A stretch of DNA of 64,000 bases, taken from positions 349,023 through 413,022 of the forward strand of contig NZ_JNLJ01000005.1 in assembly GCF_000703045.1 (NCBI RefSeq). The letters are read 5' to 3'. Both the position numbers and the translations under genes were made by a program. Source of the stretch: Persephonella sp. IF05-L8. Its GTDB lineage: Bacteria > Aquificota > Aquificia > Aquificales > Hydrogenothermaceae. Positions 43,505-51,378 of this stretch are shown here, piece after piece. The notes under the pieces were generated by a model. The model had not been told where the DNA came from. It did no database searches and saw only the letters and a program-made list of their open reading frames with translations. How positions within the stretch are numbered: position 1 is the stretch's first letter; the number at the start of each line of letters is the position of its first letter.

Positions 43505-44353
43505 CTATTGTAATAAAACTCTTCTCATCTCTTCAACAGGGGCTTTTTGACCTGTCCAGATTTCAAATGCCTTTGCTCCCTGATAAAGAAGCATAGGAAG
43601 TCCATCCTGATAAAGACAACCTTTTTCTTCTGCTGCTTGAAGCAATTTTGTTTTTTTGTAAATAATATCCACAATAATATGTCTTTTTTCTATTTTTGAG
43701 TAATCAAATAATGGTGGGTCATCCTCCTTTAAGCCGATGGAAGTTGTATTTACGATGATATCAACATCTTTTAGATAATTTTCTATATGACTAAGAGAAA
43801 TAATATCTATAATCTCTTCAATAAATCTATTTAACTTTTTAAAATCAGAGACAATTTCTTCTGCTTTTTTAACAGTTCTATTGGCAAGGATTATTTTTTG
43901 AACTCCGGATTTTATAAGTCCATAAATAACAGCTCTTGAAGCTCCACCTGCACCAATAACAAGGAATTTTTTATTCGCAAAGTCTGGAGTAAGTTCTTTA
44001 AGTCCTTCTATAAATCCATAGGCATCTGTATTAAATCCCTGCAGATAACCATCTATATTTTTAACGGTGTTGCAAGCACCTATATACTCAACTTCTTCTG
44101 AGATTTCATCCAGATATTTTATAACTTCTTCTTTGTGGGGAACAGTAACATTTATTCCTTTTATTGATAAGGCCTTTATGCCTTCTATGGCTTTCTGGAG
44201 GTCTTCAGGTCTAACCTGAAAAGGAAGATATATTGCATTTATACCAAGGGTTTGAAAAGCTGCAGTCTGAAACTGGGGGGACTTTGAATGCTTTACAGGA
44301 TATCCTATTATCCCGTAAACCTGTGTTTCCCCATTTACAAAAATATCACTCAT
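43505..44353 (-). CDS. aroE: Shikimate dehydrogenase
   Basis: The 282-residue protein has GYPVKHSKSPQFQ near residue 16, GINVTVPHKEEV with catalytic Lys near residue 73, and NTDAYGF near residue 108. The NADP loop VIGAGGASRAVIYGL lies near residue 133. It reduces 3-dehydroshikimate in aromatic amino acid synthesis. It is the last gene of an operon otherwise devoted to sulfur and Fe-S handling and overlaps the Nfu-like gene by 4 bases. Confidence 0.96.
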   Translation of the reverse strand: MSDIFVNGETQVYGIIGYPVKHSKSPQFQTAAFQTLGINAIYLPFQVRPEDLQKAIEGIKALSIKGINVTVPHKEEVIKYLDEISEEVEYIGACNTVKNIDGYLQGFNTDAYGFIEGLKELTPDFANKKFLVIGAGGASRAVIYGLIKSGVQKIILANRTVKKAEEIVSDFKKLNRFIEEIIDIISLSHIENYLKDVDIIVNTTSIGLKEDDPPLFDYSKIEKRHIIVDIIYKKTKLLQAAEEKGCLYQDGLPMLLYQGAKAFEIWTGQKAPVEEMRRVLLQ

Positions 44354-44607
44354 GTTTGTATTTCAAATTTATGCTGTCCGATATGAACCTTTTTAACCCA
44401 TGGCAGAAAATTCTTAATAGCCACAATAATAACATCTTTCATTGTTATGTCAGGCACAGGACATGTAGAGCAGGCTCCAAGAAGCTCAAGATACACAGTA
44501 TCATCCTCAACTTTTACAAGTTTAATGTCCCCCATATCCAATGCTAAAGCTGGTCTAATCATGTTAAGAACGTTTTCTACTTCCTGTTCCCTTGTTTTAA
44601 CCATCAT
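44350..44607 (-). CDS. Nfu/NifU C-terminal-domain Fe-S carrier
   Basis: The 85-residue protein consists of a single NifU C-terminal domain. It begins with a helix, EVENVLNMIRPALALDMGDIKLV, and has the cluster-binding CSTCP near residue 41 followed by ITMKDVI. Two such proteins normally share one [4Fe-4S] cluster for delivery to apo-enzymes. It overlaps both neighbours by 4 bases. Together with the IscU gene at the head of this operon it provides scaffold plus carrier. Confidence 0.9.
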   Translation of the reverse strand: MMVKTREQEVENVLNMIRPALALDMGDIKLVKVEDDTVYLELLGACSTCPVPDITMKDVIIVAIKNFLPWVKKVHIGQHKFEIQT

Positions 44608-44858
44608 TCTTTCTCCATATTGATTTTAGGAACTTCAACCCCTAATTTTTCTTGAAGTTCCTGGAAAAATTTTTGTCTGTCTTCTTCAGGTATATTTAAA
44701 ACGTTAAAAGCTCCTTTTATGCTTAACCTTTTAAGTGCTATATCTTCTAATTTCTTTTCGTAAAAATAACTGAAATATTTTCTGACTATTTCTTCACTTT
44801 CAGGAAACTCTTCAAGCAGGTGAAAAACTTTTATATCTTCTGTTATTTTCATATTCAT
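44604..44858 (-). CDS. DUF1858-like small protein
   Basis: The 84-residue protein starts ITEDIKVFHLLEEFPESEEIVRKYFSYF, the compact helical pattern of DUF1858 domains, often found with Fe-S or sulfur carriers. The usual CxxC of many DUF1858 proteins is missing. The ATG overlaps the TusA-like stop. A second ATG two codons later could be the real start. Function is unknown; position suggests a role in sulfur relay. Confidence 0.68.
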   Translation of the reverse strand: MNMKITEDIKVFHLLEEFPESEEIVRKYFSYFYEKKLEDIALKRLSIKGAFNVLNIPEEDRQKFFQELQEKLGVEVPKINMEKE

Positions 44859-45106
44859 TAGTCCTGTGTTTTCTTTACGTAAAATATATATACGCCGTCT
44901 TCTTCTTTATATCCTAAAAACTCATTTCCTGTTGTTTCACACCATGCAGGAACGTCTTGAATAGCTCCTTCGTCATCTGCAAGAAGTTCAACAATCTGTC
45001 CTTTTTTAGCCTGTTTCATAACTTTTGCAAGTTCTGTTATAGGAATTGGACAAAAAGTTCCTGTTGCATCATGGGTAATATCAGGTTTTATATTTTCTAA
45101 ATCCAT
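44858..45106 (-). CDS. TusA-like sulfur carrier protein
   Basis: The 82-residue protein has ATGTFCPIPITELAKVMKQ with the sulfur-accepting cysteine in the CPxP motif near residue 19. A final strand pattern, GNEFLGYKEEDGVYIFYV, follows, as in TusA/SirA/YeeD proteins. Such proteins pass persulfide sulfur to tRNA thiolation or dissimilatory enzymes. It overlaps the stop of the PP-loop thiolase gene by one base, a close link that suggests TusA feeds that enzyme. Confidence 0.9.
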   Translation of the reverse strand: MDLENIKPDITHDATGTFCPIPITELAKVMKQAKKGQIVELLADDEGAIQDVPAWCETTGNEFLGYKEEDGVYIFYVKKTQD

Positions 45107-46152
45107 TATATCCTCCAGCTTTCTATTATTTCTTCTTGTAGCCGTTGACCCTTTACAACGCCCTCTACCCCTGTAGGGGATGTATATTTTATATTTATTT
45201 TACCATTTTCATCTGTTTTAGAGTATCTTGCAACCAGATTGGCTATATCTTTAATTTCTTCTGGAGTAAGTTCTCTATTTTCTATTGTTTTTGCTATGGC
45301 AACTGCACCTTTTCCAACTGGCTCAAAAAACCAGTAATTTTTCTTCAATCCTCTTATGAAATTACCTTCTCCTTCATTACGGGAAACCACAACCTTTGTT
45401 CCTGTAGGCAGTCTGAAATGTCTTCCAATGGTAAGCAGATACAGGTCTTCTCTACTTATTTTATTTTCTACAGATAGAGTTTCCATATATTTTCTGGCAA
45501 AGTTTTCATCAGTTAAATAACAGCAACCACCTGCAGGCTGCTCAAACTCATCTATTCCAAGTTCTTTTGCCAGTTGCAGCTGTCTTTTTCTGCTTCTTCC
45601 TACAATGCCTTCTAATTTTTCCCTATCAACCCAGCCCTTTATCTCAGGTATTGTAGGAGGTAATACCTTTGCAGACAAAGGTTTCAGGACAAGCCCCTCA
45701 ACTCCAGCTTCCCTTTCTATGATTTTCATAGCTTTAAGATGCTGGCTCATAGGTCTTTGGTTGAGGACTTCCCCTGAGATTATAAAATCAGCATTAAATT
45801 CATCCATTAATTCTTTTGCTTTTTTATACATAAAAGCTCTACAATCTATACAAGGATTAATATTTGCTCCATAGCCATATTTGGGATTAGTAACAATATC
45901 AAAATATTCTTCTGAAATATCAACAATCTCAAGCTTAAAACCGTATTTTGCAGCATATTTCAAAGCTGGGTTCATATAATGAGAGCCGTCAGGTTTTTTT
46001 TCGCCTCTTCTTCTTTTGGTTTCCGTAATACAAAAGCCTGTGTAGAAATGGACTGCGATAACATCTATTCCTTGATTTTGGATTAGTTTTATAGCTAATG
46101 TGCTGTCAAGACCTCCTGAGTATAAAGCTATAGCTCTTCTTTTTTCTTTCAT
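45106..46152 (-). CDS. PP-loop thiouridylase-like protein (ThiI/MnmA superfamily with NFACT-R_2-like C-terminus)
   Basis: The 348-residue protein has the PP-loop SGGLDS at residues 12-17. Candidate sulfur-relay cysteines are NPCIDCRAF (Cys101/Cys104) and the PAGGCCYLTD motif (Cys210/Cys211). The C-terminal region with GRHFRLPTGTKVVVSRNEGEG resembles the NFACT-R_2 RNA-binding module. The family is annotated as tRNA thiolation related, but its exact product is not established. It lies between iscU and a TusA-like gene, which supports persulfide-dependent tRNA modification. Confidence 0.82.
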   Translation of the reverse strand: MKEKRRAIALYSGGLDSTLAIKLIQNQGIDVIAVHFYTGFCITETKRRRGEKKPDGSHYMNPALKYAAKYGFKLEIVDISEEYFDIVTNPKYGYGANINPCIDCRAFMYKKAKELMDEFNADFIISGEVLNQRPMSQHLKAMKIIEREAGVEGLVLKPLSAKVLPPTIPEIKGWVDREKLEGIVGRSRKRQLQLAKELGIDEFEQPAGGCCYLTDENFARKYMETLSVENKISREDLYLLTIGRHFRLPTGTKVVVSRNEGEGNFIRGLKKNYWFFEPVGKGAVAIAKTIENRELTPEEIKDIANLVARYSKTDENGKINIKYTSPTGVEGVVKGQRLQEEIIESWRI

Positions 46153-46153
46153 T

Positions 46154-46612
46154 TTATCCTATATGTTCTAAGTCAATACCTTCTTCTTCCTCTTCTTCTA
46201 TGCAATCAGGTATTTTATTAGCTTCTTCAATTCTGCCTTGTTTTAGAAGATAGTCTTTAATTGCAACATGAAGTGTTTCAAGTCCAAGGTTTGTGCAATG
46301 TATTTTTTGTGAAGGAAGTCCCCCAAGCTCTTCAAAAATTTCTTTATAAGTCAGGTTAAGTGCATAGTCTATGGGCTTTCCTTTCACCATTTCTGTAAGA
46401 ACAGAAGAAACTGCTATAGCAGAACCACATCCAAATGTTTTGAATTTAACGTCTTCTATAACATCATTTTCTTTATTCACTTTTATTGTAAAAAGCATTG
46501 CGTCTCCACAAGATGGGTTTCCACACTGTCCATATCCATCAGGATTTGGTATTTCTCCTAAGTTCCTTGGGTTCATGAAGTGATCCATCACCTTTTCTGT
46601 ATATTCAAACAT
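46154..46612 (-). CDS. iscU: IscU/NifU-N Fe-S cluster scaffold
   Basis: The 152-residue protein keeps the three cluster cysteines and the conserved Asp: NPSCGDAM (Cys35, Asp37), TFGCGSAIA (Cys62) and KIHCTNLG (Cys106). An unusual Glu-rich tail (EEEEEEGI) follows residue 135. IscU receives sulfur from a cysteine desulfurase and builds [2Fe-2S] clusters. It heads the sulfur operon, and GGAGGT precedes the ATG. The iscS-like gene is not adjacent but lies 2.1 kb away, also on the minus strand. Confidence 0.95.
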   Translation of the reverse strand: MFEYTEKVMDHFMNPRNLGEIPNPDGYGQCGNPSCGDAMLFTIKVNKENDVIEDVKFKTFGCGSAIAVSSVLTEMVKGKPIDYALNLTYKEIFEELGGLPSQKIHCTNLGLETLHVAIKDYLLKQGRIEEANKIPDCIEEEEEEGIDLEHIG

Positions 46613-46735
46613 CTTTAAACCTCCGGTTTTTATTCTGCTTTCAATTTATTACTTATAATATAAGCCCTCAATGAGTTAAATCATATATATTTCCTTACGA
46701 AAATTAATTATAAAGCTTTTTTGAGGAGGTTTGAA

Positions 46736-46915
46736 ATGTCTGTAGAGGAAAAAGTTTTGGAAGCTCTTGAAAAAGCAGGAAAACCACTAAAAAGTGGAGA
46801 AATAGCCGAAATTACGGGACTGGACAAAAAGGAGGTTGACAAAATTATTAAGAAACTGAAAAAAGAGGGCAAAATTCAATCTCCAAAAAGATGTTATTAT
46901 GCCACTGCTGGATAA
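46736..46915 (+). CDS. Small winged-helix DNA-binding protein
   Basis: The 59-residue protein has a winged helix-turn-helix covering nearly its full length: VLEALEKAGKPLKSGEIAEITG, LDKKEVDKIIKKLKKEG and a basic wing, KIQSPKRCYYATAG. GAGGAGGT lies before ATG 46736, so I reject the longer form from 46721. It is transcribed divergently from the iscU operon and may regulate it, or the ClC gene that follows. No cluster-binding cysteines are present (one Cys only). Confidence 0.82.
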   Translation: MSVEEKVLEALEKAGKPLKSGEIAEITGLDKKEVDKIIKKLKKEGKIQSPKRCYYATAG

Positions 46916-46982
46916 AGCTGTTTGTAAATAAACACTTGGCACTTTATAATTATTCTGTATCAATGTCAACGGGGCAAAGCTT

Positions 46983-48737
46983 TTGTTAAAAAGTATTCTC
47001 GGATATAGATTTAACTATCTTAATTTACTTATACCTGTAATTATAGGTTTTGCAGCTGGTATTTTTGCTATTGTATTTTTAGAAGCTATCCATTTTTTTA
47101 CAGATTTGTTTCTTGTTAAGTTTGTAGGATATGTACCACCTTTTCCACGAGGTGAGAGTGAACAGGAAAACTACATTTTCGTAATGGAACATCCTTATTT
47201 ATTGCCAATTTCTACTGCAATTGGTGGCTTTATTGTTGGTGCTTTAATTTACTTCTTTTCTCCTGAATCTGCTGGTGTTGGAACCGACGCTGCTATAAAA
47301 GCCTTTCATAAAAGAATACCTTTAGGGTTAAAGACATCTATATGGAAACTTATTACATCTGCAATAACAATTGGTAGTGGGCAGGTATCCGGAAAGGAGG
47401 GACCAATTGCTCTTATTGGTGCTGGTATCGGTTCTTTTGTAGGCAAATTGTTTAAATTATCTGATAGGGAAAGAAACATAGCCCTTGCTGTTGGTCTTGG
47501 TGCTGGTATTGCAGGCGTTTTTAAAGCACCTTTTGCCGGAGCAATTATTAGTTCAGAGGTATTTTATAAAAAAGATTTTGAAGTTGATGCTTTAATTCCC
47601 AGTTTTATTGCTTCATTTGTTGCTTTTATTGTGGTTGGTTCTGTTTTAGGGTTTTCCCCTTTGTTTCTGGTAGAACTTCCAGAGTTTAAAGGTTTTGGAA
47701 TATTTGATTTTATTTCTTATCTAATCTTAGGGATTTCTACAGCTATTATTGCTAAATTAATGATATTTGCACTGGATGAGGTGAAAGATTTTTTTGATAG
47801 ACTTGAAGTACATCCTATTCTTAAACCTGGAATTGGGGGTTTTTTTGTTGGAATTATTGGTATGACTGTTCCTGTTGCTATTGGGACAGGATATGGATGG
47901 CTACAGCTTATAATGTTAGACCAACTGGAGTATTTACCTGAGTGGAAAATTTTTATCAGTATATTTCTTGTTATTATAGCTTTCGCCTTTACATTGGGGT
48001 CTGGTGGTTCGGGGGGTGTATTTGGACCTTCTCTCGTTATAGGGGGGTTAACTGGAGCTTCGGTTTATAATGTTCTACATCTTATGGGAGTTCCTGACAG
48101 TTCATCTTTTAATATAACAGCTATGACTGTTGTTGGTATGGTTTCCACATTTGCTGCAGCGGCTAAAGCTCCTTTGTCTACTATTATTTTGGTTGCAGAG
48201 ATTACAGGAGGATATCAACTCCTCGTTCCTGCTACCGTCGCAGTAGCTATTGCTCATTTTTTGTCTGGAGAGAAAAGTATTTTCAAAAGTCAGGTGGATA
48301 CAAAATTGGATTCGGCAGCACACCAGGATGAGATTAAATATTTAATCTTAAAAAGATATATTGTCAAAGATATAATGAAAAAAGAAGTAATTACTATAAG
48401 TCCTGAAAGCACCGTATTGTATGCTACTAAATTTATGCAGGAATATAGGATTTCTGCTTTACCTGTTATAGATAAAGAAGGAAGAGTTATTGGTCTGGTT
48501 ACAAGTAATGACTTAATTAAAGCCTGTAATATGAAACAGGAAAATACCCTTATTTATGAAATAATGAATAAGAACCCTATCTGTATAACTGAAGACCTTA
48601 CTCTGTTTGAAACTTTAAGCATATTTGTGGAAAACAATATTAGCGTAGCACCTGTGGTAAATAATCTGGAAGAAAAAATATTAAAAGGGATTGTTTCGGA
48701 TTATGATATAGGGAAAATCCTTACAGGTAAAAAATAA
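46983..48737 (+). CDS. ClC-family chloride channel/transporter with CBS domains
   Basis: The 584-residue protein has a ClC core with SGKEGPIALIGAGIG near residue 137; its Glu corresponds to the external gating glutamate. GVFKAPFAGAIISSE lies near residue 178 and GSGGSGGVFGPSLVIGG near residue 340. Two CBS domains occupy about residues 460-580 (VKDIMKKEVITISPES, IMNKNPICITEDL) and probably bind adenine nucleotides. The retained gating Glu suits a Cl-/H+ exchanger. The start is a TTG with a weak ribosome site. Confidence 0.93.
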   Translation: MLKSILGYRFNYLNLLIPVIIGFAAGIFAIVFLEAIHFFTDLFLVKFVGYVPPFPRGESEQENYIFVMEHPYLLPISTAIGGFIVGALIYFFSPESAGVGTDAAIKAFHKRIPLGLKTSIWKLITSAITIGSGQVSGKEGPIALIGAGIGSFVGKLFKLSDRERNIALAVGLGAGIAGVFKAPFAGAIISSEVFYKKDFEVDALIPSFIASFVAFIVVGSVLGFSPLFLVELPEFKGFGIFDFISYLILGISTAIIAKLMIFALDEVKDFFDRLEVHPILKPGIGGFFVGIIGMTVPVAIGTGYGWLQLIMLDQLEYLPEWKIFISIFLVIIAFAFTLGSGGSGGVFGPSLVIGGLTGASVYNVLHLMGVPDSSSFNITAMTVVGMVSTFAAAAKAPLSTIILVAEITGGYQLLVPATVAVAIAHFLSGEKSIFKSQVDTKLDSAAHQDEIKYLILKRYIVKDIMKKEVITISPESTVLYATKFMQEYRISALPVIDKEGRVIGLVTSNDLIKACNMKQENTLIYEIMNKNPICITEDLTLFETLSIFVENNISVAPVVNNLEEKILKGIVSDYDIGKILTGKK

Positions 48738-48759: not shown

Positions 48760-49995
48760 TTATCTTACGTTTTTATATTTGTCTGCTTTTTTGGCAAACT
48801 CATCCCAGTTTTCAGGTCCAAATGGTGATATTTCTCTAAGTCTTTGAACTGCAGCAGGATATTTATCAAGTATGTAATCAATATCTTCTTCTGTATTTTC
48901 TCTACCAAGGGAGAAAACAATAGAACCGTTAGACATCTCTTTATCAACACCTATTGCAGCAAGAACGTGAGATTGTTTTAGAGCATAGGAAACACAGGCC
49001 GAACCTGATGCTGTGTAAATCTTATGATAATCAAGCATAAGAAGCATAGCTTCACCTTCAATATACATAACAATCAGTGAAAGATGGTTAGGAAGTCTTT
49101 TTTCTGGATGTCCTGTGAACTGGATATAAGGTATTTTTTCCTCAATTCCTTTTTTAAGTTTATCTCTTAATGCTTTAAGTCTATTTACTCTGTCGTCCAT
49201 TTCTTTGATGGCAAGCTCTGCTGCTGCTCCCATACCTACAATCAATGGCACAGGCTCAGTTCCTGCTCTTCTTCCACCTTCTTGAATACCACCTTCAATT
49301 AAAGGCTTGAGACGAACACCTTTTTTAACATATAGACCACCTACACCTTTTGGTGCGTAGAAATAGTGTCCTGTAAATGAGGCCATATCAAGTCCCCATT
49401 CTTCTACATTAACAGGTGTATGTCCAACAGCTGCAGCAATATCAGAATGGAAAACAACTCTTGGGTTTTTCTCTTTGGCTGCTGCAACAAGTGCTGGCAT
49501 ATCTTGAAGAGTTCCTATTTCTCTGTTTGCATACCCAATGGAAACAAGAATTGTGTCTTCTCTAACTGCTTCAGCAACTTTTTCAGGTGAGATAATACCG
49601 TATTCGTCTGGCATTATGTATGTAACTTCGTATCCTTCTTTTTCCAGAGTTTTGCAAGAGTGAAGGATAGAGTGGTGTTCTATAGCAGAAACAACAATAT
49701 GTTTTCCCCTTCTTGTGATACCTGGAGCTTTGGCAAATCCTTTTATAGCAAGGTTATTTGCTTCTATTGCTCCTGAAGTATAAACAATCTCTTCTGGATT
49801 TCCTACATTTAAAAGCTCTGCAATCTGTTCTCTGGCTCTGTTTATAGCCTTTTTCGCCTGAACCCCTAATTTATGCAAAGATGTAGGGTTTCCAAAATGC
49901 TCTGTAAAGTAAGGTTTCATAGCTTCTACAATCTCTTCAGGCACAGGTGTTGTTGCCAGATGGTCAGCGTAAACAATGCCTCTTTTTTCTATCAT
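48760..49995 (-). CDS. iscS: IscS/NifS-like protein lacking the PLP Schiff-base lysine
   Basis: From ATG 49995 (AAGGAGGA upstream) the protein has 411 residues. It has the class V fold with VYTSGAIEANN near residue 70, SAIEHHSIL near residue 103, HSDIAAAVG near residue 183 and the cysteine loop ASGSACVSY near residue 330. The expected SxHK lysine is absent: the sequence reads FTGHYFYAPKG, with Tyr at about residue 211. The usual Gln of DATQS is also Ala. The DNA codon is TAT and the frame is intact. Desulfurase activity is thus uncertain. It follows mrp in a two-gene operon. Confidence 0.9.
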   Translation of the reverse strand: MIEKRGIVYADHLATTPVPEEIVEAMKPYFTEHFGNPTSLHKLGVQAKKAINRAREQIAELLNVGNPEEIVYTSGAIEANNLAIKGFAKAPGITRRGKHIVVSAIEHHSILHSCKTLEKEGYEVTYIMPDEYGIISPEKVAEAVREDTILVSIGYANREIGTLQDMPALVAAAKEKNPRVVFHSDIAAAVGHTPVNVEEWGLDMASFTGHYFYAPKGVGGLYVKKGVRLKPLIEGGIQEGGRRAGTEPVPLIVGMGAAAELAIKEMDDRVNRLKALRDKLKKGIEEKIPYIQFTGHPEKRLPNHLSLIVMYIEGEAMLLMLDYHKIYTASGSACVSYALKQSHVLAAIGVDKEMSNGSIVFSLGRENTEEDIDYILDKYPAAVQRLREISPFGPENWDEFAKKADKYKNVR

Positions 49996-50014
49996 ATTCA
50001 AATCCTCCTTTTGA

Positions 50015-51079
50015 TTACTCACTTAATTTTCTTATCACATTTTGGGCTATTTCCATAAATGCTTTTGCTGAGTTGCTATCTTCTTTTGCCAAAACAATTG
50101 GTATTCCAAGGTCTGCAAATTCAGCCACCTTTGGTTCTATAGGAATTTTTCCAAGTAGCTCCGTATTATATTGTTTTGCTATCTCTTCTGTTTTTGATTT
50201 TCCAAATATTTCATAGGCTTTTCCGTTATCTGGACACACAAAATAACTCATATTTTCAACTATACCCAGAACAGGTATCTGAACTTCATTGAACATCTGT
50301 ATTCCTTTTTTAACGTCTATAAGGGCAACATCTTGAGGAGTTGTTACTATAACTGCTCCGTCTATTTCTGCTGTTTGCCCTAATGTAATCTGAACATCAC
50401 CTGTTCCTGGAGGAAGGTCTATGATTAGGAAATCAAGTCCTTCTCCCCAGTTTATATCAAACAGGAATTGGGATAATGCTTTAAAGAGGACGGGACCTCT
50501 CCATATTACAGGTGTGTCTTCTGAAGGTAAAAGAAGACCTATTGACATCATTTTTATTCCGTGGGCTTCTGGAGGAATAAGTTTGTTATCAGGTGTTGCT
50601 GTTACCTGTTTGTCCTTAGCTCCCAGCATTGTGGGTCCTGAAGGACCATACATATCAGCATCAAGATATCCTACTTCATATCCCATTTTTTTGAGGGCTG
50701 CTGCAAGGTTAACTGCCACAGTTGATTTTCCTACTCCACCTTTACCTGAGGCAACAGCTATGACTTTTTTAACTCCAGGAATTCTTCTTCTGTTTTCAAA
50801 AGGATTTTGTTGTGGAGGTGGTTGTGGTGGTGGTTGTTGTTGTTTCGGTGGTTCTGAAGTAAATTCAACTTCTACTTGCTCTGCTCCAATAGATTTTAAT
50901 ACTTTTTCTGCTTTTTCTTTGAGATAATCATGGTATTTTTCACTTGGGGAAAATAGTTTTATGTAAACGTTATTCCCATCTATTCTAAGGTCTCTTAAAA
51001 GGTCTGCAAGTGAAAAGCTAACGCCAATTTCCTCAAGATTTGCATTTTTTAGGGTGTCCATTACTCCCTGAAGTGCCAT
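50015..51079 (-). CDS. mrp: Mrp/ApbC-type Fe-S carrier ATPase with incomplete CxxC
   Basis: The 354-residue protein has an N-terminal MIP18/DUF59 domain (about residues 1-75), then a Gln/Pro linker. The deviant P-loop is SGKGGVGKST at 111-120, and DADMYGPS and DLPPGTGDVQ are also typical. Family members carry a C-terminal CxxC (usually CPxCG) that bridges a cluster between two subunits. Here it reads VCPDNGKAYE (Cys282, Asn285), so the second cysteine is missing. Cluster transfer may therefore differ or need a partner. It precedes the atypical iscS. Confidence 0.92.
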   Translation of the reverse strand: MALQGVMDTLKNANLEEIGVSFSLADLLRDLRIDGNNVYIKLFSPSEKYHDYLKEKAEKVLKSIGAEQVEVEFTSEPPKQQQPPPQPPPQQNPFENRRRIPGVKKVIAVASGKGGVGKSTVAVNLAAALKKMGYEVGYLDADMYGPSGPTMLGAKDKQVTATPDNKLIPPEAHGIKMMSIGLLLPSEDTPVIWRGPVLFKALSQFLFDINWGEGLDFLIIDLPPGTGDVQITLGQTAEIDGAVIVTTPQDVALIDVKKGIQMFNEVQIPVLGIVENMSYFVCPDNGKAYEIFGKSKTEEIAKQYNTELLGKIPIEPKVAEFADLGIPIVLAKEDSNSAKAFMEIAQNVIRKLSE

Positions 51080-51271: not shown

Positions 51272-51378
51272 GTCGCAATACCCTTAAATCAGCGGGTCAG
51301 TTCCAGTCAAACTAACATAAAGGAGGTATGCTATGAAGGTCGGGTCGCAATACCCTCAAAACAGCGGGTCAGTTCCAG
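51272..51378 (-). CRISPR. Two-repeat CRISPR array, type III-like repeat
   Basis: Two 35-base copies (51272-51306 and 51344-51378) differ at only two positions and flank one 37-base spacer (51307-51343). Read on the minus strand each repeat ends ATTGCGAC, the 8-base 5' crRNA tag of Thermus-type III repeats. It also has ACCC/GGGT arms able to form a short stem. A cas6 gene lies 318 bases away on the leader side. By position the right copy is leader-proximal. No cas1, cas2, cas10 or cascade genes are in the window. Confidence 0.8.

Follow-up and report, generated by a model that had tools for sequence, protein, structure and literature searches.

The window, that is, the whole stretch of 64,000 nucleotides of Persephonella sp. 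IF05-L8 that was analysed, contains a gene for an IscS homologue without the PLP Schiff-base lysine (termed here IscSx), together with genes for iron-sulfur carriers, the IscU scaffold and a sulfur carrier. The features of this locus are as follows:

50015-51079, minus strand: Mrp/ApbC-type Fe-S carrier ATPase (PF10609; GTG start; 8-nt overlap with the IscSx open reading frame)
48760-49995, minus strand: lysine-less IscS homologue, IscSx (ATG start with ribosome binding site; PF00266, 248.8 bits)
46721-48737, plus strand: genes for a small winged-helix protein and for a ClC channel with CBS domains, between IscSx and IscU
46154-46612, minus strand: IscU scaffold with all ligands present (CGD, GCGSA, IHC)
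45106-46152, minus strand: ThiI/MnmA-like PP-loop protein with an NFACT-R_2 domain
44858-45106, minus strand: TusA sulfur carrier, CPIP cysteine present
44604-44858, minus strand: 84-aa protein, with at best a sub-threshold DUF1858 match
44350-44607, minus strand: NifU C-terminal-type Fe-S carrier (PF01106)

The open reading frame of IscSx spans 48760-50022 on the minus strand and has an alternative GTG start at 50022, which gives a protein of 420 aa. The ATG at 49995, preceded 5' by AAAGGAGG at good spacing, gives 411 aa, agrees with the coordinates of the original prediction and is the likelier start. Residue numbers of IscSx are nevertheless counted from the GTG at 50022.

In the window, the genes for IscU and TusA share a cluster with IscSx. 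The insertion of the ClC and winged-helix genes on the opposite strand is restricted to the genus of the window, and in other genera IscSx adjoins IscU, the order in Hydrogenothermaceae being Mrp, IscSx, IscU, ThiI-like/NFACT-R_2, TusA, the 84-aa protein, NifU-C and AroE. In Aquificaceae, Mrp-IscSx and IscU-ThiI-TusA form two separate clusters (8 of 8 IscU loci). In almost every Aquificota locus read, the gene immediately before IscSx is Mrp, and the 84-aa gene is kept beside TusA in both Hydrogenothermaceae and Aquificaceae. The ThiI/MnmA-like gene was always found between IscU and TusA in the loci read from these two families; its product is a probable tRNA thiolation enzyme and, carrying the RNA-binding NFACT-R_2 domain, is possibly a tRNA thiolase supplied by TusA. 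Upstream of the locus, two 35-nt direct repeats (94% alike, 72 nt apart, at 51272-51378) lie near a Cas6-family gene (PF10040; 51696-52565, minus strand), an arrangement that looks like a CRISPR remnant.

Active site, fold and conservation of IscSx

IscSx was aligned to E. coli IscS, the numbering of which is used for the lost positions. The reference sequence was checked by its length (404 residues) and by the presence of His104, Asp180, Gln183, Lys206, Cys328 and Arg354 at the places named in PMC9978102. The alignment identifies the following positions, all encoded on the minus strand:

49765-49767: Ile86, replacing Thr76
49522-49524: Arg167, replacing Asn155
49432-49434: Ala197, replacing Gln183 (which contacts O3' of PLP)
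49363-49365: Tyr220 (codon TAT), replacing the PLP Schiff-base Lys206
48994-48996: Cys343, equivalent to Cys328, the persulfide/ligand cysteine of the mobile loop, kept in every lysine-less member
48916-48918: Val369, replacing Arg354 (substrate side of the site)

The original prediction, which had proposed a tyrosine (TAT) in place of the Schiff-base lysine within an otherwise kept substrate cysteine loop, His and Asp, and a changed Gln beside the PLP Asp, holds in all these respects. The SxHK motif reads SFTGHYFYAPKG, with Tyr220 aligned on Lys206; His116 (His104), Asp194 (Asp180), Cys343 (Cys328) and the counterpart of E. coli His205 are retained; and Ala197 occupies the position of Gln183. 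Three further losses (Thr76 to Ile86, Asn155 to Arg167 and Arg354 to Val369) were identified, so that Thr76, Asn155, Gln183, Lys206 and Arg354 are replaced together by I, R, A, Y and V; the first three of these are PLP contacts. Lysine-bearing relatives retain S/T, N, Q, K and R at the five positions. No other lysine was found in register. The lysine of the APKG stretch, Lys225, can be ruled out as a substitute, because it aligns with E. coli Lys211, which active, lysine-bearing enzymes carry as well. In E. coli IscS, the H104Q, D180G, Q183E, K206A and C328S substitutions each yield an inactive enzyme, and the K206A protein still binds some PLP but has no desulfurase activity (PMC9978102); the loss of the lysine and the glutamine alone should therefore abolish the activity of IscSx. 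Lacking Lys206, Gln183, Asn155, Thr76 and Arg354, IscSx would not qualify by its residues as an L-cysteine desulfurase (EC 2.8.1.7).

Full-length similarity and fold nonetheless place IscSx in the IscS/NifS branch of the class-V aminotransferase fold. Its scores against TIGR03402 (463.7) and TIGR02006 (385.3) lie below the respective curated cut-offs of 530.75 and 643.2. An AlphaFold model built from 43 sequences (pLDDT 93) aligns with a TM score of about 0.9 to IscS/Nfs1, its best structure matches being Nfs1-ISCU, A. fulgidus IscS and IscS-IscU, and E. coli IscS.

The replacement of the lysine is uniform across Aquificota. All 88 distinct Aquificota rows carry Tyr or Leu at position 206 (Tyr in 38, from Hydrogenothermaceae; Leu in 50, from Aquificaceae and allies), and dN/dS values for IscSx versus six relatives range from 0.013 to 0.086, which rules out chance or a sequencing slip as the source of the lysine loss. 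To judge from these ratios, which show strong purifying selection, IscSx is a working protein. Across the 61 genomes of the order that were searched, a single genus yielded no IscS relative, and none of the searched Hydrogenothermaceae and Aquificaceae genomes that are at least 90% complete is without the lysine-less protein. Two Aquificaceae genomes carry a second IscS relative that is more degenerate (L049:624-1712 in G039 and L051:830-1960 in G045, both on the minus strand); these present SFDGPSLMAPQG and an STPC/SSPC loop, and their C-terminal part is missing.

A cross-phylum lysine-less clade and its gene neighbours

Lysine-less hits outside Aquificota were obtained in two Nitrospirae-like MAGs (L173 and L175, with Arg at the lysine position) and in an Actinomycetota MAG (L163, with Gln). 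Those phyla were then searched with a profile of lysine-less sequences, which yielded many more members, carrying His, Leu, Gln, Met or Gly, so that the residues found at the lost position across the family comprise Y, L, Q, H, R, M and G. Arg354 has invariably given way to Leu or Val, and Cys328 is present throughout. In a maximum-likelihood tree computed with the five trait columns removed, the 33 lysine-less rows fall on one side of a single branch (UFBoot 100, SH-aLRT 99; 100% of 200 bootstrap trees). The resulting clade spans Aquificota, the Nitrospirae-like phylum and Actinomycetota and includes the IscSx of the window. Such variety at position 206 after a single split is what one would predict for a position relieved of its catalytic role. 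Lysine-bearing IscS also occurs in the Actinomycetota genomes G319, G131, G423, G284, G251 and G197, where the lysine-less set forms a second system, whereas most Aquificaceae have it alone.

Approximately 5 kb were read on either side of 60 IscS genes, selected by their sequence scores, and of the scan loci. All 31 lysine-less loci have TusA downstream in the same orientation, versus 0 of 46 lysine-bearing loci, many of which instead hold IscU and an MnmA-like gene. Among 30 loci of a Desulfotomaculum-type phylum, the single lysine-less locus presents IscU-DsrE2-TusA, and none of the 29 lysine-bearing loci has TusA within about 1.5 kb. Combined, TusA lies just downstream in 32 of 32 lysine-less loci outside Aquificota versus 0 of 75 loci with lysine-bearing IscS. 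Since the lysine-less proteins form one clade, this linkage represents one long-kept pairing rather than 32 independent events. The common order in lysine-less loci is IscSx-IscU-DsrE2-TusA, at times following an Rrf2 regulator, and the clusters include genomes in which the MnmA-like gene sits with the lysine-bearing IscS instead. An ATP sulfurylase gene was also observed near one of the Nitrospirae-like loci (L175).

Scaffolds and sulfur donors in Hydrogenothermaceae and Aquificaceae

SufB (PF01458) was not found in any of 15 Hydrogenothermaceae/Aquificaceae genomes and was detected in all 14 control genomes, which rules out SUF as a backup system; IscU was found in all genomes tested of the two families, and a DsrE2-type protein in 17 of 17 genomes. 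Elsewhere in the order, genomes of one further family (f3; G038, G040, G042 and G044, loci L180-L183) encode a short SufB-like protein of about 314 aa and have neither IscS nor IscU. A scan for class-V enzymes in three genomes (G038, G042 and G050) found no cysteine desulfurase, and family f3 may use an SMS-like system supplied with sulfide.

The search for a second, lysine-containing desulfurase suggested in the original prediction yielded a lysine-bearing IscS paralogue in the genome of the window (L001, with motifs SGHKINAPKG and SGSACSS) and in most Hydrogenothermaceae, but this paralogue does not extend to both families at large. Among 22 near-complete Hydrogenothermaceae genomes, it was not found in five (G005, G019, G020, G021 and G036), of which two are 99% complete and one 100%. 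Among 14 Hydrogenothermaceae paralogues checked, a motif scan resolved the lysine state of all but L354-L357. In the close relative G006, the paralogue is split in two frames (G006:C1:1692825-1693963, plus strand) and may be dispensable. Among Aquificaceae, no lysine-bearing desulfurase was found in 14 of 15 genomes, with G059 as the sole exception. Other class-V hits in Aquificaceae (about 100 bits) were considered as hidden desulfurases and rejected: those sampled resemble aspartate or serine-glyoxylate aminotransferases (PGPVEIP...GGSQK), and further hits are GcvPB-like by size and matched stretch. With gaps of this extent (5 of 22 genomes in Hydrogenothermaceae, 14 of 15 in Aquificaceae), the L001-type paralogue cannot be the general sulfur source, and TusA, the constant neighbour, is the better candidate for sulfur supply to IscU. 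MnmA is present in Aquificaceae without any lysine-bearing desulfurase, which implies that sulfane sulfur must there come from a donor that is not a cysteine desulfurase.

Known systems and the possible function of IscSx

IscS proteins without the lysine are, as such, already known from A. fulgidus and from the Aquifex structure PDB 9wfy. The A. fulgidus precedent invoked in the original prediction is borne out by PMC7585200 and by PDB titles: this IscS (PDB 4eb5, 4eb7 and 4hvk; D199K mutant, 4r5f) has Asp for Lys, shows no desulfurase activity and contributes a cysteine as ligand of the cluster on IscU (PMC7585200). Like IscSx, it has lost the lysine and kept the cysteine loop, it forms an IscU complex, and it has also lost Arg354 (Leu, in GTLLLTLGR); IscSx presents the same combination of lost Lys and Arg354, kept Cys loop and IscU partner gene. 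A 123-column C-terminal piece of 4eb5 falls, weakly, near lysine-bearing rows and outside the lysine-less clade, which suggests that the A. fulgidus loss is probably separate. IscS1 of Methanosarcina acetivorans, archaeal unlike the bacterial IscSx, is likewise reported to lack the catalytic lysine and to lie beside an IscU (PMC7585200).

Among the closest known systems is Aquifex aeolicus IscS, which is 68% identical to the window protein and in the wild type presents I, R, P, L and V at positions 76, 155, 183, 206 and 354, with Leu where the window protein has Tyr. PDB 9wfy is its complex with IscU, a partner common to both proteins, although iscU is unlinked to iscS in Aquificaceae. The IscS of this series is 97% and 96% identical to the products of two Aquifex MAG loci (L124 and L127), and the sibling entries (9wep, 9wer, 9wew, 9wf8, 9wfb and 9wfe) are engineered variants in which Asn, Gln, Lys, Arg and Thr have been reinstated in several combinations. 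The existence of these structures indicates that lysine-less Aquificota IscS is under study elsewhere; no paper naming the 9w entries was found in the literature searched, which left most subscription journals and bioRxiv out of scope. The same applies, with many journals out of scope, to papers on the cross-phylum lysine-less clade, the TusA/DsrE2 linkage or desulfurase-free Aquificaceae. E. coli IscS (3lvj, 3lvl) shares with IscSx the fold, the Cys328 loop and IscU and TusA as partners but, unlike the function considered here for IscSx, is an active PLP desulfurase from which sulfur goes to TusA. In the E. coli IscS-TusA crystal, TusA Cys19 lies within 4.5 Å of IscS Cys328, and IscU reaches this mobile loop from a different side (PMC2854127).

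The predicted role of a relay or IscU scaffold rather than a desulfurase gains support from the five losses, the kept cysteine loop, the selection on the gene and its cluster with IscU. The explanation that we favour, with a probability of roughly 0.55, is that IscSx is a desulfurase-dead IscS that would dock IscU and whose loop cysteine would serve as cluster ligand or persulfide relay, with sulfane sulfur arriving via TusA/DsrE. The protein would be a dimer without a PLP site but with the loop kept, either passing persulfide from TusA to IscU or holding the cluster on IscU as in A. fulgidus. Cys343 would be the fourth ligand, or would carry the persulfide, during [2Fe-2S] assembly. Inorganic sulfane sulfur, and not L-cysteine, would be the source, loaded onto TusA by DsrE2 or rhodanese-type proteins and carried as persulfide; the TusA-IscS contact may resemble that of E. 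coli but run in the reverse direction, from TusA to IscS/IscU, and the same TusA may also supply tRNA thiolation. Counting against this relay, IscSx is not adjacent to TusA in Aquificaceae, TusA next to the ThiI-like gene might be devoted to tRNA thiolation alone, and the A. fulgidus cysteine is reported as a cluster ligand and not as a sulfur source (PMC7585200). The alternative is an arrangement as in A. fulgidus, in which IscSx is a docking platform and Cys ligand only, sulfur is free sulfide and TusA serves tRNA thiolation alone. Such a mode is in keeping with the inactive, ligand-donating A. fulgidus IscS (PMC7585200), also devoid of Arg354 (GTLLLTLGR), with a methanogen that uses sulfide in the absence of SufS (PMC12442378) and with the plentiful sulfide of these habitats. 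It leaves unexplained, however, why TusA, usually with DsrE2, accompanies every lysine-less cluster outside Aquificota, even where the MnmA-like gene is found with the lysine-bearing IscS instead, and we regard it as a tentative second choice, less probable than the TusA-fed relay.

The remaining explanations appear considerably weaker. The intact motifs of L001 (SGHKINAPKG, SGSACSS) would allow the paralogue to make persulfide for IscU or IscSx, with IscSx as an accessory, but the gene is not linked to IscU, is split in G006 and has the patchy distribution described above, making this scenario unlikely. It is more doubtful still that IscSx retains PLP in the absence of a Schiff base, or with another residue in place of the lysine, and works as a slow desulfurase or as some other PLP enzyme. 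The residual PLP of E. coli K206A (PMC9978102) and the kept His104 and Asp180 point in that direction; K206A is nonetheless desulfurase-inactive, Gln183, Asn155, Thr76 and Arg354 are gone as well, and the residue at 206 varies freely (Y, L, Q, H, R, M, G), as though it had no part in catalysis. The missing catalytic residues might also mark a relic decaying towards loss, an idea that we consider hardly credible given the dN/dS of 0.013-0.086, the universal presence in searched Hydrogenothermaceae and Aquificaceae genomes at least 90% complete, and the fact that most Aquificaceae have no ISC-type partner for IscU other than IscSx.

Textbook Fe-S assembly begins with a PLP cysteine desulfurase. 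Whole bacterial families appear to run an ISC pathway from which the desulfurase active site is gone and in which the cysteine loop is kept. We put at even odds the broader proposal of a desulfurase-free ISC system, in which an ancient, cross-phylum IscS derivative would operate on TusA/DsrE2 sulfur and, with IscU, would be the sole recognisable Fe-S platform in Hydrogenothermaceae and Aquificaceae, most Aquificaceae having no cysteine desulfurase for either clusters or thiouridines. If TusA is the point of sulfur entry, the well-studied IscS-TusA exchange would run backwards, and inorganic sulfur metabolism would feed Fe-S assembly directly, a plausible early mode in sulfidic settings. The "cysteine desulfurase" annotations in Aquificota and in some Actinomycetota are probably wrong in mechanism.
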